Below, piece after piece: positions 880-16,698 of a stretch of DNA of 64,000 bases. A program made the translations under genes and the position numbers. A model generated the notes under the pieces. The model had not been told where the DNA came from, did not search any database, and saw nothing but the letters and a program-made list of their open reading frames with translations. The stretch is from Chthoniobacter flavus (GTDB taxonomy: Bacteria; Verrucomicrobiota; Verrucomicrobiia; Chthoniobacterales; Chthoniobacteraceae), in the NCBI GenBank assembly GCA_945861435.1, contig CAMAUX010000008.1, positions 62,001 to 126,000 on the forward strand. The letters run 5' to 3'. The first letter of the stretch is position 1. Each line of letters begins with the position of its first letter.

Positions 880-3800
880 TCAGGAGGGGGGCAGGAGCAG
901 GCGTGCGCGGAGGCGTGCGCCGATTTCTGCGAGCCATGCGGAGTCCGGGAGTGCGTAGGGGCGGAAGGTTTCGAGGGAGCCGAGTTGCTGGTTGGAGTAG
1001 AGGGCGCGGTGGAGGCCGAGGGAGGCGGCCTGCGGGGAGTCGACGAGGCTGGCGGAATCGTTGGCGCTCATTTGGAAGATAACGCGCATTTCGAATTCGG
1101 CGAGAGCCTTGCGGCTGAGGCAGCGCTGGACGGAGGCGAGGCTGTCGAGGGAGGCGATGAGGTGCATGCCGACGGCGCTGCCGTTGGTGATGAGCTCGTT
1201 GAGGAGGAGGCCGGGGTTGGGGGCGTCGTCGGAGCCGCTGAAGGCGAATGCCGCGTCTTCGTCGTAGCGCAGCTTGCGGTTGCGGTGCAGGCCCGGGGCG
1301 AAGAGGAAGAGGATGGGGCGTGAGGCGGCGGCGGTGTCGTCGGAGGTCCGGAGCTTGAGTTCCGCGCCGAGGCGTTCCATGACGGCGACGGCTTCGTTGC
1401 CGGCGGCGCAGGAGACGGGGTGGGGGATTTGAGCGAGGAGTTGTTCGAGGAAGAGGGCTTCGGTGGAGTCCGGCGAAGCGCAGTGGAGGAGGTGGAACTC
1501 TGCGGAGCCGATGGGGAATTGGGCTGCGAGAGCGAGGAGGGAGAAGGCGATGAGGGCGAGTGCGGCGTCCTCGCGCTGGCCTGCGATGAGGAGGTGTTGT
1601 CCGCTTTGGCGGGTGAAGCGGACTTCGGTGGGGCCTTTGATGGCGTTGGGGGTGCCGAGCCATGCGCGTGGCGCGGTGGCGGGAGCGGGGGCTGGGGCGG
1701 TCGGGGCAAGGAGGGAGTCGAATTCGGTGTTCTCGCGGATATCGGCTGGGGCGTTGCCTTCGAAGACGACGGGTGGGTGGAAGGGGGAGGGGAGTTGTTG
1801 GGAGAGGAGGGTGATTTGGCGGAGGTGGCGGTCGCGTTCTTCGTCGGAGAGCCAGACGACTTGGAAGGGGCTGTTGCCCTCGAGGGCGCCCGCGGCGTCG
1901 TTGTAGATGCCTTCGCCGGGGCGTGAGAGGAGGCGCGGGGCGGCGTTGTTCTCATCCATGATGAGGTAGGAATCGGCCTCGTTGCACTGGAGGGCGATGC
2001 GGACGACCATCTGGCCGATGGTGGCGCGCGCGAGGGAGTAGGCGCCGCCGAGGGTTTGGGAGCCGAGGAGGACGTGGATGCCGAAGGCGCGTCCCTGACG
2101 CACGATGCGGTCGAAGAGGAGGGATGCTTTTTGGGCGACGGCATCGTCTTCGACGAAGAACTCCTGGAATTCGTCGATGAGGAGGAGGGAGCGCGGGAGG
2201 GGATCCGGGGCGCTGGAGCGGCGGTAGCCTGCGAGGTCTTGAACGCCGAGTTTGCGGAAGATTTCGCCGCGGCGCTTGAGTTCCTCGTCGACGCGTTCGA
2301 GGACGGAGAGGGCGAATTCGCGATCGCTTTCGACGGCGATGACGCGGGCGTGCGGGAGGCGGTGGTCGGCGTAGCACTTGAACTCGACGCCTTTTTTGAA
2401 GTCGATGAGGTAGAACTCGATTTCGCGCGGGCTGCAGTGGAGGGCGAGGTTGGTGATGAGGACGTGGAGGAGGGTGGATTTGCCGGAGCCAGTTTTGCCC
2501 GCGAGGAGGGCGTGCTGGCGCGTGCCTTTTCCGAGGGCGAAGAACTGGTGTTTGGTGGCGCCGGTGCGGCCGACTGGGACGCGGAGTTCGTCGCTGGTGC
2601 TGGTGGTCCAGAGGGCGTCGGATGGAGGGGCGATTTGGGTGAAGGGGACTTGGACGCGGTTGGAGTCGACGCTTGCGCGGCCGATGCGGTGAAGGAGATC
2701 GCTGGCTGCTGCGGGGTCTGGCGGTGCGGTGGGCTGGAGGGAGCAGCCTGTGGGGAGGGGCTGTCCGGAGAAGGACCAGAGGCCGTTGGCGAGGTGGAGG
2801 CAGAGGCACTGGGAGCGGAGGTCTTCGGTGTTGAGGCCGTCCGGGAGCGGTTGGCGCGGATCCCAGTGGAGGAGGGTGAAGACGCCGCAGCGGGGTCCGC
2901 TGGCGAGGATGCTTTGGAGGCGTTTTGCGGCGGTGTCGCCGAGTTCGGTGGGGAAGTCTGCGAGGACGAGGAAGTGGTATTTTTCGGAGACGGACCCTGC
3001 TTGGGCGTTGTAGTCGGTGATGGTGGGGTACTCATCGCGGAGGTACATTTGGATGACCTTTTCGATGTGTTCGCTGAGTTCCTCGAGGCGGGCGTCGATC
3101 TGGTCGCGCTGGGTCCAGATGCGTCGGTTGATGAGGCTTTCCTCGTAATCGGCGAGGTGCATGAGGCCGGCGAAGCTCTGGCCGAGGCCGACGGGGTCGA
3201 AGAGGGTGCAGGTGAACTTGCCCGGTGGCAGGGTGCTGAGGAGGCGGAGGATGGCGTGGTTGAAAAGAGCGGCGACGGCGGGTGAGCCCGGTTCAGCGCA
3301 TTCGACGAGGAGAGAGCCGTGGGCTGGGAATTCGAGGGTGATGGGGAATTCGAGCTGTGCGGGATCCTGGAGCGCGAGGCGCGGGTCTGTGGGGCGGGGT
3401 TCGCCTGGCGGTGTGAGGTCGATGAGGAGGGAGCCGAGTGCGAGGCCCGTGGGGAATTGGGAGGCGGGTTGCCAGCGGGTCATTTCTGCGGGATCCCACG
3501 GCAGGAGGAGTGGGCGCAGGAGGTCGGCGTCGGCGACGAGCGCGCGGTGGCGGGATTGGAATTCTGTGGTCCAGCGGGTGGTGAGGTCTTCCCAGCGTTG
3601 GGCTTCCTCGGAGTTGAGGGTGGCGCGTTCGCGTTCGCGGTTTGCTTCGGTGAGGGTGCGGCGGCCCGCGGCTTGAGCTTGGACGGCATCGAGAGGGGAG
3701 CGGTTGTTGCTGGCAAAGGTTTCGCGGGCGCGCTCGGTGAGGAGGGCGTTGCGCGAGTGGGTGCGAGGGAGCTGGGTGTCGAGTTTTGCGCGCCCCTTTT

Positions 3801-4791
3801 CGATGAAGGCGGATTCGATCTCTTCGGCGCGTGCCCAGCGGGCATCGAGTTCTGCGGAGCGCTGGGCGAACTCGTCCTCGATGCGGGCGGTTTCGCGGGC
3901 GTGCCATGCTTCTGTGGTGAGAGCGCAGGCGTGGTGTGCGCTGCGTGCGGCGAGCAGGGCGTCTGCGAGTGCTGTGGCGGCGGGACGTGCGAGGGAGGTC
4001 GAGCGGATGCGCAGCGTGAAGATGGCGGCGAGGAGGAGGGTGAGAATGCCGCCGCAGAGCCCAAGCCCGAGAGGAGTGGGGCCGGTGGCAAGCAGGCCCG
4101 CGGAACTCAGGAGCGCAGCGAGCGGGATTTGGACAGGGACGGGAGCCGCGGCAAGGAAGCGCGGGAGTGCGAGTGCGCGGAATGCGTGGAGAGCGTCTTG
4201 GGAGGATTGGAGGGTGTCGGCGAGGTGCTGGTTCCACTGGGCGAGGTGGTCCGGGTCGCCGGCTTCCTGTGGGGCGGGGTGGGAGAGGAGGGGGAGAAAG
4301 CTTGGGCAACCCGAGAAGGCGCGCTGTGTGTGGGCGAGCAGTTGGGTGATTTGTTCGTGGGTTTCGGCGAGAGATTTTCTGGCGGAAGCGAGGGAGGTGT
4401 CGGTGGTGCGCAGTCGGCTGGTGTGGGCGCGGTCGGCGCGGAAGCGCTGGTGCTGGACTTCGCCGAGCCATTTCTCGCGGGCGAGTTGCGCGCGGCGCGG
4501 AAGGCTGCGGATTGCGGCCTGGTGGGCGAGGAGGATTTTTGTTTCGCGCGCTTGGTGGGAGGCAAGGATGGAGGCTTCGGCGTCCTGATGCGCTTGGGAG
4601 AAGGAGGAGGCGCGTTCATCGACCATCTGGGTGAGGCGGTCGAGTTCCTGGGTGAAGCGGTATTCGAGGCTGGATCGGCGCTGGCGGATGTCGCGGGTGA
4701 GGGAGTCCTCCTGCTTTGCGAAGTCGCGCAGGAGGGTTCTGAGTTCGGTGAGGAGCAGTCGTGCGCGGGTGGTGTGGGAGGGGTTATTCAC
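880..4791 (-). CDS. FtsK/SpoIIIE-type ATPase of a type VII (ESX)-like system
   Basis: A 1,303-residue membrane ATPase and the last gene of the WXG100 operon. Order of parts: a long alpha-helical N-terminus (about 1-210), a hydrophobic hairpin (about 212-262, two likely membrane spans), a second helical stretch (about 270-420), then three FtsK-like modules. Module 1 (about 485-690) has no Walker A but keeps a hydrophobic FLVLADF strand. Module 2 (about 735-985) is intact, with Walker A GKTGSGKS at 765-772 and Walker B LLLIDEF at about 869-875. Module 3 (about 1045-1290) has GQREDA in place of Walker A. Three tandem ATPase modules after membrane spans are the plan of EccC in actinobacterial ESX systems, where the protein powers WXG100 export. 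The start is GTG, and its eight bases GTGAATAA overlap the end of the preceding gene. A role in DNA translocation is possible, but the WXG-type neighbours argue for secretion. Confidence 0.85.
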   Translation of the reverse strand: MNNPSHTTRARLLLTELRTLLRDFAKQEDSLTRDIRQRRSSLEYRFTQELDRLTQMVDERASSFSQAHQDAEASILASHQARETKILLAHQAAIRSLPRRAQLAREKWLGEVQHQRFRADRAHTSRLRTTDTSLASARKSLAETHEQITQLLAHTQRAFSGCPSFLPLLSHPAPQEAGDPDHLAQWNQHLADTLQSSQDALHAFRALALPRFLAAAPVPVQIPLAALLSSAGLLATGPTPLGLGLCGGILTLLLAAIFTLRIRSTSLARPAATALADALLAARSAHHACALTTEAWHARETARIEDEFAQRSAELDARWARAEEIESAFIEKGRAKLDTQLPRTHSRNALLTERARETFASNNRSPLDAVQAQAAGRRTLTEANRERERATLNSEEAQRWEDLTTRWTTEFQSRHRALVADADLLRPLLLPWDPAEMTRWQPASQFPTGLALGSLLIDLTPPGEPRPTDPRLALQDPAQLEFPITLEFPAHGSLLVECAEPGSPAVAALFNHAILRLLSTLPPGKFTCTLFDPVGLGQSFAGLMHLADYEESLINRRIWTQRDQIDARLEELSEHIEKVIQMYLRDEYPTITDYNAQAGSVSEKYHFLVLADFPTELGDTAAKRLQSILASGPRCGVFTLLHWDPRQPLPDGLNTEDLRSQCLCLHLANGLWSFSGQPLPTGCSLQPTAPPDPAAASDLLHRIGRASVDSNRVQVPFTQIAPPSDALWTTSTSDELRVPVGRTGATKHQFFALGKGTRQHALLAGKTGSGKSTLLHVLITNLALHCSPREIEFYLIDFKKGVEFKCYADHRLPHARVIAVESDREFALSVLERVDEELKRRGEIFRKLGVQDLAGYRRSSAPDPLPRSLLLIDEFQEFFVEDDAVAQKASLLFDRIVRQGRAFGIHVLLGSQTLGGAYSLARATIGQMVVRIALQCNEADSYLIMDENNAAPRLLSRPGEGIYNDAAGALEGNSPFQVVWLSDEERDRHLRQITLLSQQLPSPFHPPVVFEGNAPADIRENTEFDSLLAPTAPAPAPATAPRAWLGTPNAIKGPTEVRFTRQSGQHLLIAGQREDAALALIAFSLLALAAQFPIGSAEFHLLHCASPDSTEALFLEQLLAQIPHPVSCAAGNEAVAVMERLGAELKLRTSDDTAAASRPILFLFAPGLHRNRKLRYDEDAAFAFSGSDDAPNPGLLLNELITNGSAVGMHLIASLDSLASVQRCLSRKALAEFEMRVIFQMSANDSASLVDSPQAASLGLHRALYSNQQLGSLETFRPYALPDSAWLAEIGARLRARLLLPPS

Positions 4792-4996
4792 AGGCTTCCT
4801 TGATCTGTCGCAGCAGGGAGTCGAGTTCCTCGATGGCAGCGACGGCGCGTGCAGCCTGGCCGGGGAGCGGGTCGAGGTAGCGGTCGGAGAATTCGCGGCT
4901 CTTTTGGTCGTTCCAAGAGAGCTGGGTTTGCTGCCATTGGAAGGTGAGGTCCTTGAGCGCCTGGGCGAGGTTGGATGCGCTGGTACGGATGCTCAT
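4784..4996 (-). CDS. Mini WXG-type helical protein
   Basis: A 70-residue, almost wholly helical protein. Around residue 28 it carries SWNDQKSREFSDRYL, which matches position for position the TWQDQEHTKFADEFL stretch of the WXG100 gene upstream: W-x-D-Q, four residues, F, then an acidic/aromatic Leu end. In WXG100 proteins the tight turn is W-x-G; here both copies have Asp. The start is fixed by an ATGA overlap with the stop of the coiled-coil gene, and its own stop overlaps the GTG start of the ATPase. Together with the larger WXG100 protein it could form an EsxA/EsxB-like heterodimer and be the exported or targeting unit. It is shorter than the roughly 100 residues usual for the family. Confidence 0.75.
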   Translation of the reverse strand: MSIRTSASNLAQALKDLTFQWQQTQLSWNDQKSREFSDRYLDPLPGQAARAVAAIEELDSLLRQIKEACE

Positions 4997-5553
4997 GGTT
5001 GTGGGGAGTCCGCTGGAGCTGCGGGGGCGGCGTCGGAAGTTGGAGCAGACGTGGGAGCGGAGGCGTTTTGCGGCGGGAGGGTGCCCATGGAGGCGTAGGC
5101 GTCGAGGGTTTGCTGCGCTTGGAGAAGGAATGCGATGCCTTTGGGGAGATCCATGTCGAGGCACTGGCGCAGGGCTTCCATGCGCTTGAGGAGCGGGTCC
5201 ACCTTGTGGTCGAAATCGCGGATCCAGAGGCGGATGGCGCGCAGTTTTTCCTCGGCTTCGGCGACGGCGCGGCGGGCTTTGAGGACGGCGTTTTTCTGCA
5301 GTGTGGCGGAATCGCGGAGGGTGGAGAGTTTGGCGGAGAGGAGTTCCTGTTCGGCTTGGTCGAGTTCGCGGCGGCGGCGTCGCAACTGGGCTTCCCAGTG
5401 GGTGCGTTGGTCGTGCTGGAGCCACTGGCGGGTGCGGCGGACGTCGTCGAGGGCGGAGTCGAGGGCGTTGTGGGCGCGGGTGCCGAAGACGATGAGGGAG
5501 GCTCGGAAGGATTCGAGGACGTCGAGTGAGGTGATCTTGGCCTGCTGGGTCAT
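4993..5553 (-). CDS. Coiled-coil protein of the ESX-like operon
   Basis: A 186-residue protein counted from the ATG at 5553 (MTQQAKITSLDVLESFRASL). Residues about 10-150 are heptad-rich, with a charged RRRRRELDQAEQELL segment and KARRAVAEAEEKLRAIR; the last 35 residues are a flexible Ala/Pro/Ser tail. There is no signal peptide and no membrane span. I do not recognise a named family. Its place between the two WXG-type genes, with four-base ATGA coupling to the second, suggests a structural or chaperone-like part of the same machine. A GTG at 5568 is an alternative start, but the ATG is favoured because a 9-codon leader frame ends on it. Confidence 0.75.
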   Translation of the reverse strand: MTQQAKITSLDVLESFRASLIVFGTRAHNALDSALDDVRRTRQWLQHDQRTHWEAQLRRRRRELDQAEQELLSAKLSTLRDSATLQKNAVLKARRAVAEAEEKLRAIRLWIRDFDHKVDPLLKRMEALRQCLDMDLPKGIAFLLQAQQTLDAYASMGTLPPQNASAPTSAPTSDAAPAAPADSPQP

Positions 5554-5579
5554 GGGAGCGTGGGGCACGCAGCCTGCAT
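5550..5579 (-). other. Nine-codon leader frame overlapping the coiled-coil gene start
   Basis: The last ATG of the 9-bp repeat array opens a frame reading MQAACPTLP and stops at a TGA that overlaps the ATG of the coiled-coil gene (ATGA). Ribosomes finishing it could re-initiate directly on that gene. Whether it is translated is unknown; there is no clear Shine-Dalgarno sequence. Confidence 0.35.
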
Positions 5580-5651
5580 GGACTACATGGACTACATGGA
5601 CGACATGGACGACATGGACGACATGGACTACATGGACTACATGGACGACGG
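5577..5651. repeat. 9-bp tandem repeat, about eight units
   Basis: Seven full units plus partial ends of GACTACATG or GACGACATG lie head to tail between the WXG100 gene and the coiled-coil gene. On the coding (minus) strand every unit carries ATG at the same phase, followed by TAG in four units and TCG in three, so the array is a ladder of in-frame start codons, several of them start-stop pairs. It lies outside all coding frames. The array could vary in copy number. Confidence 0.9.
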
Positions 5652-5656
5652 AGCGG

Positions 5657-5929
5657 TCAGCGCTGGCTGAGGTAGTCTTCGATGCGCTGGGCTTTGCGGA
5701 GGAGGAACGGGGTGTGTTGTTCGGCGACTTCCATGAATTTGCGCAGGGCCTTCATGGTGGAGAGGAATTCGTCGGCGAACTTGGTGTGTTCCTGATCTTG
5801 CCAGGTGCTGGAGAGGCTGCTGAAGCGGGCTTGGAGTGCGGAGGCTTTGGCCTGCATTTCCTCGTTGAAGCGCTTGAGTTCGGTGGCGAACCGGCGCACC
5901 TGCTCGGGATCCATGATTGCTTGCGCCAT
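5657..5929 (-). CDS. WXG100-family (ESAT-6-like) protein
   Basis: A 90-residue two-helix protein and the first gene of the operon. Helix 1 (about 6-43) is charged and ends in SSLSSTW; the turn at about residues 45-48 is W-Q-D-Q where the family has W-x-G; helix 2 (about 50-88) includes KFADEFLSTM. Length, hairpin layout and an FtsK/SpoIIIE ATPase in the same operon all fit the WXG100 family, whose members are secreted as helical-hairpin dimers by type VII systems. Residue 6 (ATG at 5914) is an alternative start. The C-terminus reads RKAQRIEDYLSQR; a YxxxD/E export signal is not obvious, which leaves the substrate role open. Confidence 0.8.
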   Translation of the reverse strand: MAQAIMDPEQVRRFATELKRFNEEMQAKASALQARFSSLSSTWQDQEHTKFADEFLSTMKALRKFMEVAEQHTPFLLRKAQRIEDYLSQR

Positions 5930-6048
5930 AGGAGGAGGGGGTGGGGTGATGGACGCGTGGATGCTAGCTGCACCCTTTCAGGAGAGCAATGTGCGATGCG
6001 ACTGGCGTGGAGCCGTCGGAGCCGCGCGGCTGGACTTGAGGGAGCAGG

Positions 6049-8601
6049 CTACGGCTGGAAGGCGCGGTGCTTCGCATCGCCGCCGCTGAGGACGTAGGCG
6101 AGGAGGTCGAGGATTTCTTCCTTCTTGAGCATGGAGAGGAGCATGGGGGGCATGGGGGAGACCTTGGAGGGTTCGATGGAGCGGATGTCGCTGCGCTTGA
6201 TGTTCACACGCTGGTTGGGGTCGGAGGGGTCGGTGTTGAGCGTGGTGGCTTCGCCATTCAGATTGACGACGGTGCCCATGACCTGTTCGCCGTTGGTCTT
6301 GGTGACGACGATGGGGACGAACTGTTCGTTGATCTCCTTGCTGGGGTTGAGGATCTGGTCGAGGAGGTCGTGCGGTGTGTAACGGCCGCCCGCGCCGGTG
6401 AGGTCGGGCCCGGTCATACCACCCTCATTGCCGAAGCGGTGGCAGGCGAAGCAGCCCGCGGCGCCGAACATTTTGCGGCCCTGGGCGAAGTCGCGCGCCT
6501 TCATGCCGTTGGTGGCGGCGGGCGAGAGTTCGTCGAGGGTCCAGTTGGAAGGGGTGCGTCCGGCGAAGATGGCGCCGAGGTTTTCGAGGGCGGATTTGCG
6601 CTCGGGTTTTTTGGCGAGGAGGGAGGCGAGTTCCTTTCTGTGTTCCTCAGAGAGAGAGGCGAGGGCGTCGGTGCGGATGAATTCGATGAATTTATCGAAG
6701 CTGGCGCCGCCGCGGTAATTGGCGGCCTTGAGGAACCATTCGAAGTAGGTGGCGCGAGCGGGGAGGGGCCAGCCGGCTTTGAGCATGCGCAGGGAGCGGG
6801 CGTATTCGATCTGTTCCTCCTGAGTGGGAGCGTTTTGGATGAGCGCGATGGCCTTGGTGGCAACGGTGGGGCTTTGGAGGAAGACGAGCGTTTCGCACAG
6901 GAGCCAGTTTTCCTCGGCGCTCTGGGAGGGGAAGAGGGAGTCGAGGCGGGAGGCGAGTTGCGCGGCGTCGTTTTCTTCGGGGCGTCCGAAGCGGTTGAGG
7001 GTGATCTCGATGGCGCGCAGCACGGAGAGGCGGGGGGCGCTCGGGAGTGTCTTCCAGTCGAGTTCGGTGAGCGCAGCGAGGATGCGTGCGCGCTGCCGCG
7101 GATCGGCGGGTGCGTCTGTGGATTTGCGATGGAGCGGGTCGATGCCGGTGACGCGGGCGAGAGCAAGGAGCGCTTCGGCGCGGGTGACGGGATTTTTTTC
7201 TTTGAACGCCCGGTCCTGCCACTGGGCGGCGGGTTGGTGTTCGAGGGCGGTGCGTGCGGCGGAGCGCAGGAAGCGGTCCGTGGAGGAGAGGTGGGGCCAT
7301 GCGGTGTCGACGGCTTTCTGCGCCATGGAGGGATCTTGCCGTGCGTGGAAGCGTTCGAGTTGATGGCGCAGTGCGCGGGCGTCGGCTTCGGTGGGGGTGG
7401 TGGTGTCGGCCGGGGCGGTGGGCTCGGAGCCGGTGTAGGTGACGCGGTAGAAGCCGCTCTGCACTTTGCGGCCGCCGGTGGTGAAGTACATGGCGCCGTC
7501 GGCTGGGTGGATGAGGGCGTCGGTGAGCGGCAGTGGTGCGCCGGAGACGAATTCCTCCTTGGAGGCCGTGTAGCTGGATCCCTGCGGAGTGAGATGGATG
7601 GCGTAGAGTTTGCCCCAGCTCCAGTCCAGGCAGTAGAGGGCGCGCTGGTACTTGGCCGGGAATTTTGCGCCGTAGCCGAAGGTCATGCCGGTGGGGGAGC
7701 CGGGGCCGATGTTGACGGCGGGGGGGAGGTTGTCCGGATACCACTCGGGGTATTTGCCTGCGCCGTTGCGCCAGCCCCATTCGCTGCCGGAGACGACGTG
7801 GCAGACGCGTGTGGGGCGGTACCATGAGGTGTTGAAGTCGTACTCCATGTCGGCGTCGTAGGTGAAGAGTTCGCCTTCGCGGTTGAGGGCGGCGTCGAAG
7901 ATGTTGCGGAAGCCGGAGGCGACGATCTCGCAGTTTTTGCCGTCTGGAGAGATGCGGTAGATGATGCCGCCCGGGGCGAGGGCGTCGCGCATGAATCCGC
8001 GGCCGTCGGGCATGCGTGGCAGGAGATGGTCCTCGCCCCAGTGGAGAGGGACGCGGGAGGAGGTGAAGTCGGTGGGTTTGGTGCCGTTGCCCGTGATGAG
8101 GAAGAAGTCGCGGCCGTCCGGGGTGGGGACGAGCGCGTGGACGCCGTGGTCGCCGCGTGCTTCGAAGGGGCGGAGGAGTTCGACCTTGTCGAGTTGGTCG
8201 TCGTTTTTGGAGGAGCTGATGCGGTAGAAGCCGCTGGGGATCTTGCGTTCGTAATCGTTGACGCCGACGTAGAGGGCGCCGAAGGCCCAGACCATGCCGT
8301 TGACGGCGCGGATTTCTGCGGGGATGCGTTCGATGGAGGCGGGCGCGAGAGGCTGGCCTTGGGCGGGCGCGTGGAAACGGTAGAGGCTGCCGTACTGGTC
8401 GCTGACGAGGAAGCGGCCCTTGTCATCGGTGCAGAGGTTGACCCAGGAGCCTTGGAGATCTGCGGGGATGGAGTAGAGGAGTTCCGCCTTGAATCCTTTG
8501 GCGAGCTTGAGGCGTTCGACCGGGGTGGCTTGGGCGGGCTCGGCCGCGTGAAGGGGGTGGAGGGCGAGGGTGAATAGGAGCGAAGCGAGGAGAGTTCTCA
8601 T
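6049..8601 (-). CDS. PVC-type secreted dehydrogenase-like protein with C-terminal cytochrome c
   Basis: An 850-residue exported protein. The ATG at 8601 begins a good signal peptide (MRTLLASLLFTLALHPLHAA). Residues about 30-400 form a beta-propeller of the soluble glucose/sorbosone dehydrogenase type seen in membrane-bound dehydrogenases of planctomycetes and verrucomicrobia. The middle (about 420-690) is helical, HEAT-like. The C-terminus is a cytochrome c domain with the haem site CFACH at about 717-721, followed by GPDLTGAGGRY and an SPMPPM stretch that could supply the axial Met. It probably oxidises a sugar or similar compound in the periplasm and passes electrons to the haem; the substrate cannot be read from sequence. 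It is a separate unit from the ESX-like operon 120 bases away. Confidence 0.85.
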   Translation of the reverse strand: MRTLLASLLFTLALHPLHAAEPAQATPVERLKLAKGFKAELLYSIPADLQGSWVNLCTDDKGRFLVSDQYGSLYRFHAPAQGQPLAPASIERIPAEIRAVNGMVWAFGALYVGVNDYERKIPSGFYRISSSKNDDQLDKVELLRPFEARGDHGVHALVPTPDGRDFFLITGNGTKPTDFTSSRVPLHWGEDHLLPRMPDGRGFMRDALAPGGIIYRISPDGKNCEIVASGFRNIFDAALNREGELFTYDADMEYDFNTSWYRPTRVCHVVSGSEWGWRNGAGKYPEWYPDNLPPAVNIGPGSPTGMTFGYGAKFPAKYQRALYCLDWSWGKLYAIHLTPQGSSYTASKEEFVSGAPLPLTDALIHPADGAMYFTTGGRKVQSGFYRVTYTGSEPTAPADTTTPTEADARALRHQLERFHARQDPSMAQKAVDTAWPHLSSTDRFLRSAARTALEHQPAAQWQDRAFKEKNPVTRAEALLALARVTGIDPLHRKSTDAPADPRQRARILAALTELDWKTLPSAPRLSVLRAIEITLNRFGRPEENDAAQLASRLDSLFPSQSAEENWLLCETLVFLQSPTVATKAIALIQNAPTQEEQIEYARSLRMLKAGWPLPARATYFEWFLKAANYRGGASFDKFIEFIRTDALASLSEEHRKELASLLAKKPERKSALENLGAIFAGRTPSNWTLDELSPAATNGMKARDFAQGRKMFGAAGCFACHRFGNEGGMTGPDLTGAGGRYTPHDLLDQILNPSKEINEQFVPIVVTKTNGEQVMGTVVNLNGEATTLNTDPSDPNQRVNIKRSDIRSIEPSKVSPMPPMLLSMLKKEEILDLLAYVLSGGDAKHRAFQP

Positions 8602-8804
8602 GTGCTGGGGGTGGGCGGTGAGTTTTCGGGAAAAGGGTGTGGGGAGCAAGCGTGGCCGCGGGGTGGACTTCGGTGGGTGGGGAGGGTGTTAGGAGGGATG
8701 GGAGCGGGTGGTGAATGAAATGGAGGGCTTTGGGAGCGTACTGTGCATTGCGCTGGTGGGATTTTCAGGTAATGTGCATCGTTTTTGCACTGAGAAATTT
8801 CCTT

Positions 8805-10808
8805 ATGGGCGAATCTGAAAATCGTAGTTCGAAGGGCGACCGTCCGCCTCCCTCACCGGAGTCGGGCTTCAACTGGCGCGGGGTGATTTTGTTTGTGATC
8901 GCGCTGGGGTTGATAGGAGCGGCGTTTGTCGTCAAGGGCCCGAGTGGGGTGAAAGACATTCCGTATCCGAAGCTGCTGGACGAGATCACCGCGGGGCATG
9001 TGGACAAGGAGAAGGTGGAGTTGGTGTCCGAGCAGTCGAACACGATGGTTTTCCTGCGTGGGGTGACGATCGGGACTCCGGAGGCGCCCGGGGGCGCGTT
9101 TCGGACGACGGTGAACCTGCAGTTTAACAGTAATCTGAAGGAGGAGCTTTCGGAGCTTGGAGTGCGTCCCAAGGAGGTGTCCGATGCGAACCAGCTGGCA
9201 TCCGTGCTCTTGAGCCTGCTGCCGTTTGTGGTGTTCGTACTGGTGCTGTACTTCTTCTTCCGCCAGCAGATCCGGATGGCTGGCAAGGGGGCGCTCAACT
9301 TTGGAAAGAGCAAGGCGCGGATGCTTTCCCGTGAGAAGAACCGGATCACGTTCAAGGACGTGGCCGGGGTGGAGGAAGCCAAGGAGGAGGTGGAGGAGAT
9401 CGTGGATTTCCTGCGCGATCCGAAGAAGTTTCAGAAGCTGGGCGGGCGCATTCCGAAAGGGGTGCTTTTGATCGGGCCTCCCGGGACGGGCAAGACGCTG
9501 CTGGCGCGTGCGATCGCGGGCGAGGCGGATGTGCCGTATTTCTCTATCAGCGGTTCGGACTTTGTGGAGATGTTCGTGGGTGTGGGCGCGAGCCGGGTGC
9601 GGGATATGTTCTTGGAAGGCAAGAAGTCTGCGCCGTGCATCATCTTCATCGACGAGATCGATGCGGTGGGTCGTCATCGCGGTCACGGGTTGGGTGGCGG
9701 GCACGACGAGCGGGAGCAGACGCTCAATGCGCTGCTGGTGGAGATGGACGGGTTCGACACGCAGGAGGGAGTCATCATCATCGCTGCGACGAACCGGCCC
9801 GATGTGCTGGATCCGGCGCTGCTGCGTCCCGGGCGTTTTGACCGACAGATCACGGTGAACCTGCCCGATGTGAAGGGGCGCGAGGAGATTTTGAAGGTGC
9901 ACGCCCGCCGGGTGAAGCTGGCGGAGGGGACGGATCTTGGGGTGGTGGCGCGTGGCACGCCTGGCTACAGTGGAGCGGAGCTTTCCAACGTGATCAACGA
10001 GGCGGCGCTGCTTGCGGCGCGCAAGGGGATGAAGTGGATTGGTCTGGCGGAGTTGGAGGAGGCGCGGGACAAGGTGCGCTGGGGGCGTGAGCGCCGGAGC
10101 TTGGCGATCAGCGAGAAGGAGAAGGAGAACACGGCGTATCACGAGGCCGGGCATGCGCTGCTGCTGGAGCTTTTGGAACACACGGAGCCTTTGCACCGGG
10201 TGACGATCATCCCTCGTGGACCTTCGCTGGGAGCGACCATGTGGCTGCCGCAGGAGGACAAGTACAACATGCGCCGTTTGGAGTTGGTGGACAGCCTCTG
10301 TGTCACCATGGGCGGCCGCGTGGCTGAGGAGATTGTGTTCGGGGACGTGACGAGCGGCGCTCGTGGAGACATCAAGCAGGCGACCGGGATGGCCCGGCGC
10401 ATGGTGTGCGAGTGGGGGATGAGCGAGAAGCTCGGGATGGTGGAGTACGGGGATCACGATGAGTACGTGTTCCTTGGCCGTGAAATGGGCCGTCAGCGCG
10501 ATTACAGCGAGGCGACGGCTCAGGAGATCGACCGTGAAGTGCGCAAGTTGTGTGATGATGCGTATGCGCGTGCGAAGGAGTTGCTCCTCAAGAACCGGGA
10601 CAAACTGGAGGTGATCGCGAAGGCGCTCCTGGAGTTCGAGACCCTCGATGGCTCACAGATTCGCGATATCATCGGGACCGGATCCATGAGCAATCCGCCT
10701 TCGTCGCCGCGTCCGCGCGGGACACCGCCTCCGTTGAAACCGATTGAGGAGTCTGGGAAGACCGTGGCGTCTGAGTTCCCGGGCGGACTCACCGAGGCGA
10801 CTGCGTAA
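8805..10808 (+). CDS. ftsH: ATP-dependent zinc metalloprotease FtsH
   Basis: A 667-residue membrane protease that degrades misfolded membrane proteins and short-lived regulators. Two membrane spans (about 26-44 and 133-153) flank a periplasmic loop. The AAA domain has Walker A GPPGTGKT at 224-231, Walker B IIFIDEID at 279-286 and the second region of homology from [10 protein letters not shown] to RPGRFDR. The protease domain has the zinc site HEAGH at 446-450. The C-terminus is a Pro-rich tail. The ATG at 8805 is chosen because it gives a normal short cytoplasmic N-terminus; longer in-frame starts upstream add an implausible extension. Divergent from the cytochrome gene and followed by a strong terminator. 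Confidence 0.97.
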
Positions 10809-10854
10809 ATTCAGAAGCAGAGAACCTGCACTGGCGGGTTTTCGAGATTGTTTG

Positions 10855-10888
10855 AAAAAGGCGCATCCTTTGGGTGCGCCTTTTTTCT
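10855..10888 (+). terminator. Rho-independent terminator after ftsH
   Basis: The arms AAAAAGGCGCA and TGCGCCTTTTT enclose a 9-base loop and are followed by a run of T, about 50 bases after the ftsH stop. Confidence 0.88.
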
Positions 10889-11127
10889 TTGGAGCGTTTG
10901 CTGGAGGGGCCGGTCTGTGATGGCCAGCCGACAGGGTGTGTCGATGGGGATCAGTGCGCGGTTTCTTGCTCGGTGTAAGCGGCACTGGTGGGATCCGTAG
11001 AAAACACGCTGCCAAAATGCAGGGAGTTCCACCGCCCTTGGGTGCACGGTTTTTTTGCGTTCCTGTGGGTGCTGGTGAGTTCCCGGATGTTCGCCTCAAG
11101 CCGGGGTAGTTTTGGGAATGCCGCGGT
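10889..11127. other. Intergenic, no gene seen
   Basis: About 240 bases between the ftsH terminator and the end of the convergent aldo/keto reductase gene. I see only short frames without family patterns and no further hairpin. Confidence 0.5.
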
Positions 11128-11997
11128 TCAGGGGGCGGTCGCAAGCTTTCCCAGCAGTTCCATGTTCGCGGGGGAAAGCGTGAGATGTGCGGCCGCCATG
11201 TTCTCCTCCAAATGGTGGAGTGAGGTCGTGCCGGGAATCGGCAGGATGTTGTCAGAACGCTGGAGCAGCCACGCGAGGGCCACCTGGCCGGGAGTGGTCC
11301 CCAGACTGTGAGCCACCTGCTCCAGCGGTCCGCCCGCCTCTGTGAGCGGTGCGCGGGGATCGAAGGGCTTGGCGGCGAGGGGACCCCACGGGAGGTAGGC
11401 GATTGCGTGCTGTGCGCAGTAATCCACCACGGCATCGTCCGAGCGCTCTGCGAGGTTGTAGCGGTTCTGCACGCTGGCGATTGGCACGATGAGGCGTGCT
11501 TCTTCCACCTGCGCGAGGGTCACATTCGAGAGCCCGACGTGTCGGATCTTTCCTTCCGCACGCAGCGAGGCAAGAGCGCCGACACTTTCTGCAAAAGGCA
11601 CGGCGGGATCGGGCCTGTGGAGTTGGTAGAGATCGATGCGCTCCACGCGCAACCGCTTCAGACTCGCCTCGCAGAAACGCCGGAGGCTCTCCGGGCTGCC
11701 ATCTGGGAAAACTTTGTCGGGAGCGGTTTTTTCGACGCCCCCCTTGGTGGTGACCACCAGCGGCGCCGCGTAGGGAGCAAGGGCTTCGGCGATCAACTCC
11801 TCGTTCGTTCCCGGGCCGTAGGGATGCGCGGTGTCCACCAATTCCACCCCGAGTTCCACCGCGCGCCGCAACAGGCGCACACCGCCTTCCCAGTCCGCGT
11901 AGCGTCCGAAGTTTCCTGGTTGGCCGCAGAGTCGCATGGCGCCGAAGCCGAGCCGGTAGACGGGCAGATCTCCGCCGAGTGCAAAGTGTGTGTTCAT
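11128..11997 (-). CDS. Aldo/keto reductase
   Basis: A 289-residue NAD(P)H-dependent reductase with a TIM-barrel fold. The catalytic tetrad is visible: Asp in VDTAHPYGPG, Tyr in the same stretch, Lys in VVTTKGG and His in YQLHRPD. Later segments GLSNVTLAQV and SVQNRYNLAER are typical of the family, and the nucleotide-binding end reads ILPIPGTTSLHHLEEN. The ATG at 11997 is chosen because it puts the first beta strand near residue 10. It is the last gene of a minus-strand run of sugar-metabolism genes, about 150 bases after the isomerase, so it may or may not share their transcript. The substrate is likely a sugar-derived aldehyde or ketone, by inference from context. Confidence 0.88.
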   Translation of the reverse strand: MNTHFALGGDLPVYRLGFGAMRLCGQPGNFGRYADWEGGVRLLRRAVELGVELVDTAHPYGPGTNEELIAEALAPYAAPLVVTTKGGVEKTAPDKVFPDGSPESLRRFCEASLKRLRVERIDLYQLHRPDPAVPFAESVGALASLRAEGKIRHVGLSNVTLAQVEEARLIVPIASVQNRYNLAERSDDAVVDYCAQHAIAYLPWGPLAAKPFDPRAPLTEAGGPLEQVAHSLGTTPGQVALAWLLQRSDNILPIPGTTSLHHLEENMAAAHLTLSPANMELLGKLATAP

Positions 11998-12154
11998 GGG
12001 TGCGTCTCGTGGAAAACCCGGAAGCGCGGGTGAACACAAGCCTTTCCCGCGTACGCCGGCGGATCTGACGACTGCGTGACGGTGTGCGGATGAGGGTGGA
12101 ACGCGGGGCGCTGATGATCCCGGAGAATCGGCGCGCGACCCTTGTCCCTGCCGA

Positions 12155-13036
12155 TTACCAGTACTGGGCTATCTTGGCTTTGAGGAAATCGGCGCTGCGC
12201 TGCAATTGCTCGATACCGTCCACGCCGTCCTCGATGCTGATCCAGCCGTTGAATCCGGCCACCTTGAGTTGGGTGAAGATGGCGTCGTAGTCGTTGAGTC
12301 CCTTGCCGATTTCGCCGTGACGCAATCGCGCGACGTAGCCGAGGGAACCGCCTTCTTCGCGGCGGAGGTCCTCCAAGGTGCCACTGAGCAGGTAGCGGTC
12401 GCTGGCGTGCATGGTGACGACGCGTCCGACCACCCGTCGTAGTAATTCGAGGGGGTCATCGCCGGCGATGTAGGCGTTGCTGGGGTCGTAGTTCACGCCG
12501 AAGAAGGGATGCTGCACGGCGTCCACGAGCGCACAGAAGACCTCGAGCTTTTGGGCGAACTCCGGGTACTCCCAGAAGTCGTCCTTGTAATGGTTCTCGA
12601 GGATGAGCGTGACGCCGCGCTCTTGGGCATGGGGGAGGCAGGCGTGGATGCTGTCGGCTGCGAGCTTCACGCCTTCGTCCATGGTGAGTTCGGGGCGGCG
12701 CTGGCCGCTGAGCACGCGGCAGTAGCTGCCGCCGAGCGCGTGGGTCATGTCGATCCAGCGCTTCTGTTTCGCCACCTCGCGGCTTCGGAATGCGGCGTCG
12801 GGATGGGTGAAATCCGGGGAGCAGCAGAGCATGGGGATGACCATTCCGAGGTCCGCCACCTGGCGTCGGAAAACAGGCCAGAGTGCGGAGTCCTCCATCT
12901 CGAGGAATCCAGCGTAGAATTCCAAGCCGTCGACGCCGAGGGTGCTGGCGAGCTTGAACCACTCTGCGAGTTTCATGCTGCCGTCCTTGCAGAGGGCTTG
13001 CATGTAGGCTTTGGGAAATGCTGCGAGCTTGGGCAT
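12155..13036 (-). CDS. Sugar phosphate isomerase/epimerase (xylose isomerase-like TIM barrel)
   Basis: A 293-residue AP2Ec-type TIM barrel without a signal peptide. Metal-binding residues of this family are present in order: Glu in LILENHYKDD (about 150), Asp in NYDPSNAYI (about 185), His in VVTMHASDRY (about 211) and Glu in WISIEDGVDG (about 268). Members isomerise or epimerise keto-sugars, as in L-xylulose-5-phosphate 3-epimerase, hydroxypyruvate isomerase and tagatose epimerase. Its neighbour of the HUMPS decarboxylase family makes a UlaE-like step conceivable, but no kinase or transporter is present to support a full ascorbate/gulonate route. Downstream of the SDR gene by 65 bases. Confidence 0.85.
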   Translation of the reverse strand: MPKLAAFPKAYMQALCKDGSMKLAEWFKLASTLGVDGLEFYAGFLEMEDSALWPVFRRQVADLGMVIPMLCCSPDFTHPDAAFRSREVAKQKRWIDMTHALGGSYCRVLSGQRRPELTMDEGVKLAADSIHACLPHAQERGVTLILENHYKDDFWEYPEFAQKLEVFCALVDAVQHPFFGVNYDPSNAYIAGDDPLELLRRVVGRVVTMHASDRYLLSGTLEDLRREEGGSLGYVARLRHGEIGKGLNDYDAIFTQLKVAGFNGWISIEDGVDGIEQLQRSADFLKAKIAQYW

Positions 13037-13101
13037 GGGTGTGCGGAGGAAGTTGTGGGAGTGCGGGGAAGGAGGGAGACGTGTGGGCGGGCGTGGAGGG
13101 C

Positions 13102-13893
13102 TCAGCGGCGGGGGATCTCTTGTTTAGGCGGGTTGCGGCCGATGAGTGGGTACTGTTCCAAGTCGACGACCTGCCCGCTCACCGGTCCGCTTTCGTCGCT
13201 GAGCCAGTAGACTGCGGCGGCCGCGATTTCTTCGGGAAGCAGCAACCGGCCAGCGGGTGCGGTGAGGCTGGGGAGGCGCTCCTGCCAGTCATCGCTGAAG
13301 CCCTGCGCCTTTTTGCGGAGGGACTCGTTTTCGGTGAGCACCCAGCCGGGGTTGATCTGGTTTACACGGACTCCGTGCTCGCGCATGAGCGAATCGCCGA
13401 GGTTGCGGGTGAGAGTGGTGAGGGCGCCTTTGGATACGCTGTAGGGGAGGAGGTTGGGTTCCCCGCACCATGCGTTGACGCTGCCGATATTGAGCACGCA
13501 TCCGTGGGCCTCCTGAAGGTGCGGAAGGGCTTCCTTGATGAGCAGGAACGGCGCGACGGTGTTGACCGCGAGCATGTGGTGGAAGGCTTCGGCATCCGTG
13601 GAATCGAGGTCGCCGGAAGCCACGAGCGCGGCGTTGTTCACGACCGCGTCCAAGCGACCGAAGGTTTCCACGGCAATATCCACGAGGCGGCGTGGGCATC
13701 CGGGGGCGGTGAGGTCCTCCACATGAGCGACTGCGTGCTGAGCGCCGATCTGCGTGACCAACGATTGGGCGAGTTCCGGTTCGAGTCCGTGAACGAGCAC
13801 TGAAGCGCCTTCCGCGGCACAGCGCAGAGCGATGGCGCGGCCGATGCCCGTGGCGCTGCCTGTTACCAAGACGACCTTGTTTGAGAGGCGCAT
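13102..13893 (-). CDS. Short-chain dehydrogenase/reductase
   Basis: A 263-residue classical SDR. The cofactor motif TGSATGIGRA is at about 11-20, NNAALV at about 86-91, the catalytic Ser in NIGSVNAW and the catalytic pair in YSVSKG (YxxxK) at about 150. The C-terminal part VSGQVVDLEQY follows the usual GQ-x-x-D/V-x-GG end but lacks the Gly pair. Only three bases separate its start from the end of the zinc dehydrogenase gene, so the two are surely co-transcribed. Having two dehydrogenases in tandem suggests consecutive oxidation and reduction of a polyol or sugar acid. Confidence 0.9.
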   Translation of the reverse strand: MRLSNKVVLVTGSATGIGRAIALRCAAEGASVLVHGLEPELAQSLVTQIGAQHAVAHVEDLTAPGCPRRLVDIAVETFGRLDAVVNNAALVASGDLDSTDAEAFHHMLAVNTVAPFLLIKEALPHLQEAHGCVLNIGSVNAWCGEPNLLPYSVSKGALTTLTRNLGDSLMREHGVRVNQINPGWVLTENESLRKKAQGFSDDWQERLPSLTAPAGRLLLPEEIAAAAVYWLSDESGPVSGQVVDLEQYPLIGRNPPKQEIPRR

Positions 13894-13896
13894 GGA

Positions 13897-14922
13897 TCAG
13901 AGGGGGCGGAGGACGGATTTGACGACCTCGCCGTGGTGCATTTTTTCGAAGGCCGTGTGCCAGTCGGTCACGGGCCAGACGCCGCCGATGACGGGGCGCA
14001 CGTCGAACTGGCCGCTGGCCATGAGGGCGATGACGCGTTCCCAGATGGGCCAGTAGTGGCTGAAGCTGCCTTGGAGCGTCACATTTTTCTGCACGAGTTT
14101 GTCGAGGTTGAACCCGAGGGGTTGCGGGCCCCAGCCGACCTTGCTGATCCAGCCCGCGGGGCGCACGAGTTCGAGGGCGATTTTGAGGGTGATGCTGGCG
14201 CCGGCTGCGTCGATGACGCCATCGCAGCCCATGGCGTCGCGCTGCATGGCCCATGCGGTGGCGTCGCCGATCACCACCTCGCAGCCGTACTGGCGTGCGA
14301 CCTCGAGCCGGCCTGCATCCTGGGGGAGTCCCACCACGGCCACCTGTGCGCCGCAGAGCCGCGCCATGGCTGCACAAAGGATGCCGATCGTGCCCGGGCC
14401 GAGAACGATGACGCGGTCGCCCGGTTCGATGCGGGCGTTGCGGACGACGGCGTTGTAGGCGACGCAGCAGGGTTCGGTGAGGCAGGCCTGCTCCATGGGG
14501 AGGGAGTCGGGCACGTGGTGGAGGATGCGGGCGGGCACGCGCACGAAGCGGGTCATGGCGCCATTCACTCCGTAGCCGAAGCCCTTGCGCGTGGGATCAA
14601 GGTTGTAGCGGCCCTGGCGGGTCATGGGGTTGTTCTGGTCGATCACGGCGGCGGTCTCGCTGACGACGCGCTCGCCTTCCTTCCAGCCCGATACGCGGCT
14701 GCCGACCTCCACGATGCGGCCTCCGAATTCGTGGCCGAGCACCACGGGGTAATTCACCGTCCAGGAATGATCCGCGGTCCACTGGTGCAGGTCGCTGCCG
14801 CAGACGCCTACGTTTTCGACTTCGAGAAGGACGTCCTCCTCGCCGATGACGGGACGTTCCAGTTCGCGGATTTCCACGGAGCCCTTTTCGGGCGCGAAGT
14901 TCACGACGGCGGGCGATTTCAT
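13897..14922 (-). CDS. Zinc-type alcohol/polyol dehydrogenase (MDR superfamily)
   Basis: A 341-residue medium-chain dehydrogenase. The catalytic-zinc region is present: GVCGSDLHQW at about 39-48 and GHEFGG at about 65-70. The nucleotide-binding motif is LGPGTIGIL. Substrate-side features include TEPCCVAYNAV. The loop that in sorbitol and threonine dehydrogenases holds four cysteines for a structural zinc reads AAVIDQNNPMTRQGRYNLDP and has none, so only the catalytic zinc site is expected. The start at 14922 gives a normal N-terminus (MKSPAVVNFAPEKG); longer in-frame starts add a Ser/Pro/Arg-rich stretch without family resemblance. It is the second gene of the cluster, 64 bases after the decarboxylase. 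Confidence 0.9.
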   Translation of the reverse strand: MKSPAVVNFAPEKGSVEIRELERPVIGEEDVLLEVENVGVCGSDLHQWTADHSWTVNYPVVLGHEFGGRIVEVGSRVSGWKEGERVVSETAAVIDQNNPMTRQGRYNLDPTRKGFGYGVNGAMTRFVRVPARILHHVPDSLPMEQACLTEPCCVAYNAVVRNARIEPGDRVIVLGPGTIGILCAAMARLCGAQVAVVGLPQDAGRLEVARQYGCEVVIGDATAWAMQRDAMGCDGVIDAAGASITLKIALELVRPAGWISKVGWGPQPLGFNLDKLVQKNVTLQGSFSHYWPIWERVIALMASGQFDVRPVIGGVWPVTDWHTAFEKMHHGEVVKSVLRPL

Positions 14923-14986
14923 GCGGTGTGTGGGTGGGTTGAGGGAGGATGGAGTTTGAGGAGGTGAGGGGAGGCTGATTGGTGGC

Positions 14987-15694
14987 TTACGCGCGGCCGA
15001 CGGGGACGTCTCCGTAGGCGTGGATCTTCTCGCAGATGAGGCGCAGCGAGCCTTCGAGGTCGCCCGAGGCGGTCTTGAATGCATCGGCGTCGATGGTCAG
15101 AGGCGCGCCGAGCACCACGAGGGGTGCGCCGAATTCCGGACAGCGGATGGCTTGTTCCAGAGTGAGTCCGCCGACGGCTTGGACGGGGATGTGGACGGCC
15201 TGGACCACCTCGCGCAGCTGGTCCAGAGGGCTGGGCATGCGGTGGCCGGCGGCGGCGATTCCGCGGCGTTCATCGTAGCCGATGTGATGGATGACGTAGT
15301 CGCAACCGAGGTCCTCGATCCACTTGGCACCTGCCACCATGTCCGGGCAGCCGAGGTTGTCGCCCATGACTTTGACCCCGTGATCCTGCCCGGCTTTCAC
15401 CACCACTTTGAGGGTTTCCTCATGAGCGCGAGCCATGACGACCACGTGGGTCGCACCGGCCTTGGCCATCATCTCTGCTTCGAGATATCCGCCGTCCATC
15501 GTCTTGAGGTCGGCCACGATGGGGACTCCCGGGAAGGCGCTGCGGAGGGCGCGCACGCCGTGGAGACCCTCAGCGAGGATGAGCGGGGTGCCGGCCTCCA
15601 GCCAGTCGGCGCCGGCGCGCATGGCGAGTGCGGCGGTTTCGAGTGCTTCGTCGATATTGGTGAGGTCGAGGGAGATTTGGACGATGGGTTTCAT
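14987..15694 (-). CDS. HUMPS-family decarboxylase/synthase (KGPDC or hexulose-phosphate synthase type)
   Basis: A 235-residue OMP-decarboxylase-like barrel. The family's key D-x-K-x-x-D motif is seen in VADLKTMDGG (about 62-71), with MARAHEET, the DNLGCPD loop and VQAVGGLT (the phosphate-binding Gly loop) following. The family includes 3-keto-L-gulonate-6-phosphate decarboxylase and 3-hexulose-6-phosphate synthase; sequence alone does not decide between them. The hexulose-phosphate isomerase that usually accompanies the formaldehyde pathway is absent, which favours sugar-acid catabolism. It is the first gene of the cluster and divergent from the PAS-AraC regulator. The ATG at 15694 is chosen because the barrel's first strand (PIVQISLDL) starts right after it. 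Confidence 0.85.
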   Translation of the reverse strand: MKPIVQISLDLTNIDEALETAALAMRAGADWLEAGTPLILAEGLHGVRALRSAFPGVPIVADLKTMDGGYLEAEMMAKAGATHVVVMARAHEETLKVVVKAGQDHGVKVMGDNLGCPDMVAGAKWIEDLGCDYVIHHIGYDERRGIAAAGHRMPSPLDQLREVVQAVHIPVQAVGGLTLEQAIRCPEFGAPLVVLGAPLTIDADAFKTASGDLEGSLRLICEKIHAYGDVPVGRA

Positions 15695-15840
15695 AGGGAA
15701 AGCGTTGGGTGTGAGAGGAGCGGGGAGGCGGCCTGCTGGAGATTCTTGGGAGGGGAGTTGAGAGCGTGGAGCTGGGTGGAGGCTGATTCCCATTGAAGGT
15801 GCTGGTGGGCGGGGCGTATGTAGGCAAAGAGCCAATTTTT

Positions 15841-16620
15841 ATGTTAAAAACGTCATCCCGAGTCCGGTGCGCCTCTGGTGCCGCGGCGAGGCAGGAGAGC
15901 TTCCTTGGGAGCGTGGTTCTCGATGCGTCCCTGCTCGGCCTCTTTGAGCACCTTCCGGAGGTGAACTGTTTTGTCAAAAACCGTGCGGGAGAGACGATGT
16001 TCGCCACCCGCAACTGGGCGGTGCGGCATGGTTTTCAGGAGGCGGTGGAGATGCTGCTGAAGACGGATGCGGAGATGACGCCTGGGCCTCTGGCAGCGGG
16101 ATATGCGGCGGCGGACGACGTGGTTTACCGGACGGGGCGGCCTCTGCTTGGGACGGTGGAGCTGTGCATCGACGAGGTGGGTTTGCCGGACTGGTACGTC
16201 ACGCACAAGTTTCCGTTGAGGGGCCGGGGCGGCCGGGTCATTGGGTTGGTGGGGGTGTCGCTGGCTTGTCACGAGAGCGATCCGCGCGGGGTGCCCAACA
16301 CGCGCATCACGCCTGCGACGCGTGCGCTGCAGCGGGAGTTGGTGGAGTTTCCGAAGCCCGCGCGACTTGGGAAACTTTGCGGGCTCTCGGTGCGGCAGCT
16401 TCAGCGCTGCTTTGAAGAATCCTTTGGGATTTCCCCGCGCACGTACTGGATGAAGTGCCGGATCCGCGCCGCTTGTGAGAGGCTGCGCTCGGCTTCCCAG
16501 CCCATCGCTGTGGTGGCGCAGGAGTTGGGTTTTTGTGACCAGAGCGGATTCACGGCGCATTTTCGCAAGCACACGGGACAGACTCCGCGCGGCTACCGTC
16601 TGAAGGCGGGGCTCAAGTAG
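15841..16620 (+). CDS. AraC-family regulator with N-terminal PAS-like domain
   Basis: About 259 residues. The N-terminal half reads as a PAS-type sensor: LFEHLPEVNCFVKNRAGE, then RTGRPLLGTVELCIDEVG, DWYVTHKFPL and GRVIGLVGVSL. The C-terminal 100 residues hold the two helix-turn-helix units of AraC proteins (LGKLCGLSVRQLQRCF and IAVVAQELGFCDQSGFTAHF, then the TGQTPRGYR signature). Divergent from the HUMPS-led cluster, it is the likely regulator of that cluster, perhaps responding to a pathway sugar or metabolite. The ATG at 15841 is preferred; a TTG at 15793 is in frame and would add 16 residues. Confidence 0.88.
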   Translation: MLKTSSRVRCASGAAARQESFLGSVVLDASLLGLFEHLPEVNCFVKNRAGETMFATRNWAVRHGFQEAVEMLLKTDAEMTPGPLAAGYAAADDVVYRTGRPLLGTVELCIDEVGLPDWYVTHKFPLRGRGGRVIGLVGVSLACHESDPRGVPNTRITPATRALQRELVEFPKPARLGKLCGLSVRQLQRCFEESFGISPRTYWMKCRIRAACERLRSASQPIAVVAQELGFCDQSGFTAHFRKHTGQTPRGYRLKAGLK

Positions 16621-16698
16621 GGAGGGATGGGGCGGAGTGCGGTGGCTGCAACGCCGGGGCGCTGATGGTCTTGGGCGGGGCGGCGTTGTTGTGGGGAT

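Follow-up and report, generated by a model that had tools for sequence, protein, structure and literature searches.

Work on type VII secretion has been confined almost entirely to mycobacteria and Gram-positive bacteria. Solo WXG domains associated with a distinct YueA-like ATPase, in which just the middle one of three HerA/FtsK domains is active, have been described, and verrucomicrobia are named in that description (PMC3482391, Table 1 footnote 6). In Helicobacter pylori, a WxG protein and an FtsK protein have been treated as a minimal type VII set (PMC4978471), and the H. pylori protein HP0062 carries the motif WRD (PMC3397514). For the EssC-like/WXG100 module of extended CoCoNuTs, secretion was argued from the presence of the WXG100 proteins (PMC11090510); Gram-negative WXG100 loci are as yet unconfirmed as secretion systems (PMC10765036). 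The pairing of a WXG100 protein with an FtsK-like ATPase in Verrucomicrobia and other diderms is therefore not new, having already appeared in print (PMC3482391, PMC4978471, PMC11090510 and PMC10765036).

The window analyzed here, a stretch of 64,000 nucleotides from Chthoniobacter flavus (contig CAMAUX010000008.1, positions 62,001 to 126,000), contains at 880-5929 four minus-strand genes with overlapping junctions, which encode, in order, a WXG100 protein, a long helical hairpin, a mini-WXG-like protein and an EccC-like ATPase (Table 1). Inspection of the reading frames and translations confirmed the four coupled genes, and the overlaps that had been cited for their tight coupling (ATGA and GTGAATAA) were found in the sequence and recur in relatives, often identically, with a gap of -4 between genes 2 and 3 and of -8 between genes 3 and 4. 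The ATG start of gene 2 at 5553 is backed by relatives, and a GTG at 5568 is also possible. Elsewhere in the window, at 50020-59198, lies a cluster of short tandem repeats (9, 18, 21, 24 and 27 bp) of the sort seen in repetitive surface-protein genes. We propose, with a probability of roughly one half, that the cassette represents a Verrucomicrobiota branch of minimal type VII-like modules, in which a membrane-tethered motor would pass the helical proteins of the operon over the inner membrane.

Table 1. Positions of the cassette genes, ATPase parts and internal repeat in the window
Feature	Position	Strand	Basis or remark
WXG100-family protein (gene 1), 90 aa	5657..5929	minus	Pfam WXG100; W-x-D in hairpin turn
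9-bp tandem repeat CATGGACTA x 7.8	5577..5646		between genes 1 and 2, inside operon; Tandem Repeats Finder score 119, 96% matches
Helical-hairpin (coiled-coil) protein (gene 2), 186 aa	4993..5553	minus	AlphaFold2 model and conserved family
Mini-WXG-like protein (gene 3), 70 aa	4784..4996	minus	W-x-D-x5-F motif; TIGR03930 E 0.0075
EccC-like FtsK/SpoIIIE-family ATPase (gene 4), 1303 aa, GTG start	880..4791	minus	profiles, PDB match, tree
Predicted two-helix membrane hairpin of ATPase, residues ~212-259	4015..4158	minus	hydropathy peaks at 212 and 241
ATPase module 1, residues 425-709	2665..3519	minus	no P-loop/Walker A; resembles EccC DUF domain
ATPase module 2, residues ~730-1000	1792..2604	minus	sole intact Walker A and B; D1-like, matches EccC/YukB D1
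Walker A AGKTGSGKST, residues 764-773	2473..2502	minus	sequence and conservation
ATPase module 3, residues ~1040-1303	883..1674	minus	degenerate, GQRED replaces P-loop; model aligns with EccC/EssC ATPase modules

A scan of bacterial genomes with the ATPase recovered at least 386 relatives, and the best 80 of these were nearly all from Verrucomicrobiota, where they are spread over several orders. The complete cassette was present in the same gene order at 64 of 79 Verrucomicrobiota loci; among the other 15, ten are cut by a contig end and five lack gene 1 despite the presence of upstream DNA (L008, L050, L055, L060 and L066), with gene 2 also missing from four of these five. Of 388 genomes of the phylum examined by two independent searches, 21 proved to carry gene 1 and 23 the ATPase, and every genome with gene 1 also had the ATPase (Fisher 1e-32). 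The cassette is patchy in Verrucomicrobiota, being carried by about 6% of the sampled species and by none of ten other listed genomes of the window's own order, yet its parts travel together; because it recurs across the phylum, the arrangement is not due to chance. The genome of the named strain Verrucomicrobium sp. BvORR106 contains a copy, a locus labelled Bacteroidetes (L019) probably derives from a mislabelled Verrucomicrobiota bin, and no relative was found in viral contigs.

Clustering of all neighbouring reading frames at the cassette loci revealed no fifth conserved gene. Conserved neighbours were considered as missing partners and rejected: the commonest shared families were seen at 9 and 7 of 81 loci, with neither a constant distance nor a constant strand. 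As no conserved neighbour accompanies it, the unit looks complete. At six loci from several lineages (L029, L046, L062, L054, L076 and L079), genes resembling those for pilins or for type II secretion are found approximately 2-9 kb from the cassette, which may be coincidence. In the window's genome, YukD/EccD-type (PF08817) and EssB/YukC-type (PF10140) proteins gave no match in searches whose Bacillus subtilis control was positive, and EccB likewise gave no match, in a search without a positive control match. The view that this diderm has a compact, ESX-like unit of four genes, devoid of the usual partners, is therefore supported by the missing fifth gene and by the negative searches for YukD/EccD and EssB/YukC. 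The cassette itself encodes no pore or outer-membrane component, and none of the results hints at a path through the outer membrane.

The product of gene 1 scores above the curated cut-off of PF06013 (E 1.6e-9; 38.3 bits against 27.3), and at the level of sequence its homology to the WXG100 family is established. Its nearest solved structure is HP0062 of H. pylori (profile match 3fx7/2gts, E 6e-10), followed by EsxB and EsxA. The mean column identity of the family is 78% across 33 relatives, all of which carry W-x-D in place of W-x-G. Gene 3 shows the motif W-x-D-x5-F in 33/33 relatives, with the same spacing as in gene 1, and its assignment as WXG-like draws mainly on this motif; its match to TIGR03930 is weak and below the cut-off, and an hhalign comparison with the gene 1 family gave E 0.0086 at a probability of 5%. 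Of the two WXG-type proteins that had been claimed, gene 1 thus passes the Pfam cut-off and gene 3 is a weak match, and both are W-x-D rather than W-x-G proteins. A relationship of gene 3 to the 76-82 aa proteins of mobile loci was also sought, and none was detected.

Gene 2 has no good family match among Pfam and NCBIfam profiles. Its AlphaFold2 model (mean pLDDT 89) consists of two helices of approximately 75 residues each, at 5-76 and 80-157, and a disordered Pro/Ala-rich tail. A specific fold could not be assigned, since the matches are to generic coiled coils only (Foldseek best E 0.07; VIA Z below 12); they include YscO, Smc, HlyD and PspA/Vipp1, with Z values in the range expected for long helices. 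A nuclease domain was not detected in this protein by profiles, family alignment or model. All three small families lack a strong signal-peptide-like or membrane segment (top 18-residue hydropathy 0.7, 1.5 and 1.0 for genes 1 to 3).

The ATPase matches the Pfam profile FtsK_SpoIIIE (E 2.5e-27), and among NCBIfam profiles EccCa ranks first with 118 bits (E 3.7e-34), FtsK reaching 37 bits. The closest PDB chain is 4nh0 (EccC), and the best Foldseek matches of the model are EccC and EssC of type VII systems. The model, which covers residues 425-1303 and was built with 61 sequences (mean pLDDT 82.7), contains three RecA-like modules. Module 1 aligns to residues 129-416 of EccC5 (7np7; Z 14.7, rmsd 5.7, 237 aligned) and to the ESX-3 translocon chain 6umm_E (Z 13.8), and the Walker A and Walker B (IDEF) motifs are invariant in module 2 in 74/74 sequences and absent from modules 1 and 3. 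Given the match of module 1 to the EccC DUF domain and the place of the Walker motifs in the middle module, the modelled layout resembles that of EccC, with one module fewer at the C-terminus and with the motor where EccC has D1. A one-motor architecture is established by the sequence and the model together. The earlier description of a triple-module EccC-like FtsK/SpoIIIE ATPase holds as regards the three modules and the best profile, EccCa, but needs correction in that the Walker motifs are confined to the middle module.

In a tree of motor domains, the WXG-linked ATPases form one 31-row clade (100/98), which takes in proteins from Verrucomicrobiota, Caballeronia, Helicobacter, Rhodococcus and Deinococcus, that is, all WXG-linked ATPases examined. 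This clade is separate from EccC/EssC D1 (97/83) and from EccC D2 (100/98), and judged from these sequences the ATPase of the window is a separate lineage beside the EccC/EssC D1 clade, not inside it; the branching order within the WXG-linked clade is unsure owing to several long end branches. DNA translocases (FtsK, TcpA and others, including the FtsK of the window's own genome) split off at 99/91. The ATPase might be conceived of as an FtsK/HerA/TcpA-like DNA or envelope translocase that the WXG genes adjoin by chance, and FtsK motor domains do align well with it (VIA Z 25.7, tied with EccC chains), a tie that reflects the motor fold common to one superfamily. The separation in the tree, the lead of 81 bits of EccCa over FtsK, the co-conservation of the WXG100 gene with the ATPase and the presence of a separate FtsK in the genome all speak against such a translocase, which we reject on tree and profiles and regard as very improbable overall. 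The earlier note had staked its reading on the four genes staying together in relatives and on the ATPase falling outside the DNA translocases; the genes are indeed kept together in Verrucomicrobiota, and the ATPase groups with EccC/EssC-type motors, apart from those translocases, so a type VII-like reading is favoured.

More distant relatives, identified by tblastn, reside on plasmids. A Helicobacter plasmid from a cat (L090, 7728-12130) encodes, in this order, a WXG100 protein, a coiled-coil WHH/colicin-type DNase, a SUKH immunity protein, a small protein and the ATPase, a gene set that links the family to toxin handling. The loci of Caballeronia and of a Verrucomicrobiota second copy (L122) combine a vWA protein, a WXG100 protein, a coiled coil with a conserved REase-like C-terminus, small proteins and the ATPase with CARF/Card1-like, vWA, PP2C, kinase and helicase genes, matching the EssC-like extension described for CoCoNuTs (PMC11090510). 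The second copy, at 4666-18740 of its locus, is a complete CoCoNuT-type extension, and the four-gene cassette is present in its genome (G212) as well. A shorter relative of the ATPase is found in a further genome of the same class (G051; L124, 8734-14800), beside two 97-aa W-x-D WXG-like proteins, a 316-aa protein and a repeat-rich protein. PADLOC gave matches at the superfamily level only (SspH, mad8 and HerA). The WXG proteins of the mobile loci are clear homologues of gene 1; for genes 2 and 3 there are positional counterparts, with no homology detected. We considered whether gene 2 might be related to the N-terminal coiled coil of the nuclease proteins of Helicobacter and Caballeronia, as a homologue without the toxin part, but hmmsearch and hhalign were negative (probability 0.4-3%), and their shared operon position is best described as a positional analogy.

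These mobile loci bear on the idea that the cassette exports toxins or other effectors whose genes lie at different sites of the genome, in the manner of polymorphic toxin systems. The nuclease and immunity genes on the Helicobacter plasmid, and the REase-like coiled coils between WXG100 protein and ATPase in Caballeronia and the second copy, speak for such an engine. Unlinked substrates were sought in the window's genome with WXG100, LXG and gene 2 profiles: a single WXG100 protein and a single copy of the gene 2 family were above threshold, and LXG toxins were not found, the B. subtilis control being positive. Additionally, gene 2 is free of a toxin domain in all 33 aligned relatives, and no toxin gene is encoded near the cassette. 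We consider the export of such effectors improbable; with no toxin encoded nearby, the proteins of the operon itself are the probable cargo.

The first 424 residues of the ATPase look like a coiled coil, in which the predicted membrane hairpin is flanked by two coiled-coil stretches. Two hydropathy peaks are present in 60/74 ATPase relatives; L077 and one clade of eight loci (support 1.0) are without the hairpin, corresponding to two changes on the tree, and most of these loci still keep the cassette. In three of four more divergent Verrucomicrobiota copies there are two hydrophobic segments, and in the fourth a single borderline peak; for this reason the absences look like losses, of which there were at least two. 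The Caballeronia, Helicobacter, L122 and Akkermansia-like copies of the ATPase have no predicted anchor in the N-terminal part. Anchor loss is the observation that speaks most strongly against the ATPase forming an obligatory channel in the membrane. Its occurrence in two lineages gives weight to an intracellular machine, in which an EccC-like ring would remodel or position the long hairpin and the W-x-D bundle as part of a stress response or of defence, with no export at all. The retention of most cassettes after the anchor was lost, the lack of membrane helices in the closest mobile relatives and the vWA, PP2C, kinase, CARF/Card1-like and helicase genes that adjoin those relatives, a CoCoNuT-linked defence context (PMC11090510), are in line with such a role. 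Conversely, the hairpin is carried by the majority of the ATPases and by three of the four divergent copies, no conserved defence or signalling gene stands beside the four-gene cassette, and PMC11090510 itself favours secretion. On balance, we rate the intracellular machine as somewhat unlikely, though a serious competitor.

The most likely function, in our view, is that the cassette exports its own helical products at the inner membrane. The ATPase would probably form a hexameric EccC-type motor, tethered to the inner membrane by the short hairpin predicted in its coiled-coil stalk, with a single working motor domain that is preceded by an EccC DUF-like module and followed by a degenerate one at the C-terminus. 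The W-x-D proteins encoded by genes 1 and 3 may form four-helix bundles like HP0062 and EsxA/B and may act as cargo or signal, and the long hairpin of gene 2 could be cargo as well, or a partner delivered together with them; the motor would hand or thread these helical proteins through the inner membrane. Certain observations count against export, namely the near absence of the C-terminal YxxxD/E export motif (0/33, 1/33 and 0/33 relatives for genes 1 to 3), the double loss of the membrane hairpin, the several mobile relatives that lack it, the lack of an encoded pore or outer-membrane part, and the failure to detect homology between genes 2 and 3 and their counterparts in the mobile loci. We can speculate further that one ATPase and three small helical proteins constitute a self-sufficient inner-membrane export machine, distributed across Verrucomicrobiota without toxins or known type VII partners, whose long hairpin is secreted or builds the envelope and whose motor has become soluble in two lineages; this fuller picture is doubtful. 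As the unit is small, sharply defined and widespread, it offers a simple test of the role of a minimal engine in the WXG-linked ATPase family, and the repeated anchor loss has left soluble forms of the ATPase, among them those of a Prosthecobacter clade, which can be compared as natural variants with the anchored ones.

The cassette shares with T7SSa (ESX) and T7SSb (Ess/Yuk) a WXG100 protein and an EccC/EssC-type ATPase with DUF-like and D1-like modules. The ATPase of those systems consists of DUF, D1, D2 and D3, whereas that of the window has a DUF-like, an active D1-like and one degenerate module, that is, one module fewer, with Walker motifs only in the D1-like module and no FHA domains. 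Unlike T7SSa and T7SSb, the cassette has no detected YukD/EccD-type protein or EssB and no YxxxD/E motif, and both of its small proteins carry W-x-D, while the WXG proteins of Gram-positive bacteria carry W-x-G. With the HP0062/HP0066 "WXG100 secretion system" of H. pylori, it has in common a W-x-D WXG100 protein and an FtsK/SpoIIIE protein in a diderm; the H. pylori cluster contains an HNH/Endo VII superfamily nuclease, and the window cassette has none. The system of solo WXG domains and YueA-like ATPase (PMC3482391) shows the same pairing and the same single active middle module, but it was described as mobile, whereas the cassette described here is a unit of four genes on the chromosome, which includes one gene for the long hairpin and one for the mini-WXG protein, and its ATPase usually has a membrane hairpin. 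The EssC-like/WXG100 module of extended Type III-A CoCoNuTs (PMC11090510) is similar in its three-module ATPase, of which only the central domain is active, in the N-terminal coiled coil of that ATPase and in having two WXG100-like proteins and a coiled-coil protein. That module differs in the nuclease fused to the coiled coil, the DNA-mimic-like protein and the vWA/TerY-P genes, none of which occurs in the window cassette, and it lacks membrane helices, in contrast to the predicted hairpin of the window ATPase. The defined four-gene unit, its co-conservation, the absence of effectors, the membrane hairpin with its repeated loss and the double W-x-D are additions that we did not encounter in the literature searched, the coverage of which was partial. 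Taken together, these comparisons show that the cassette is a Verrucomicrobiota variant of a published kind of module: chromosomal, without nuclease or toxin, mostly membrane-anchored, and with W-x-D in both small proteins.
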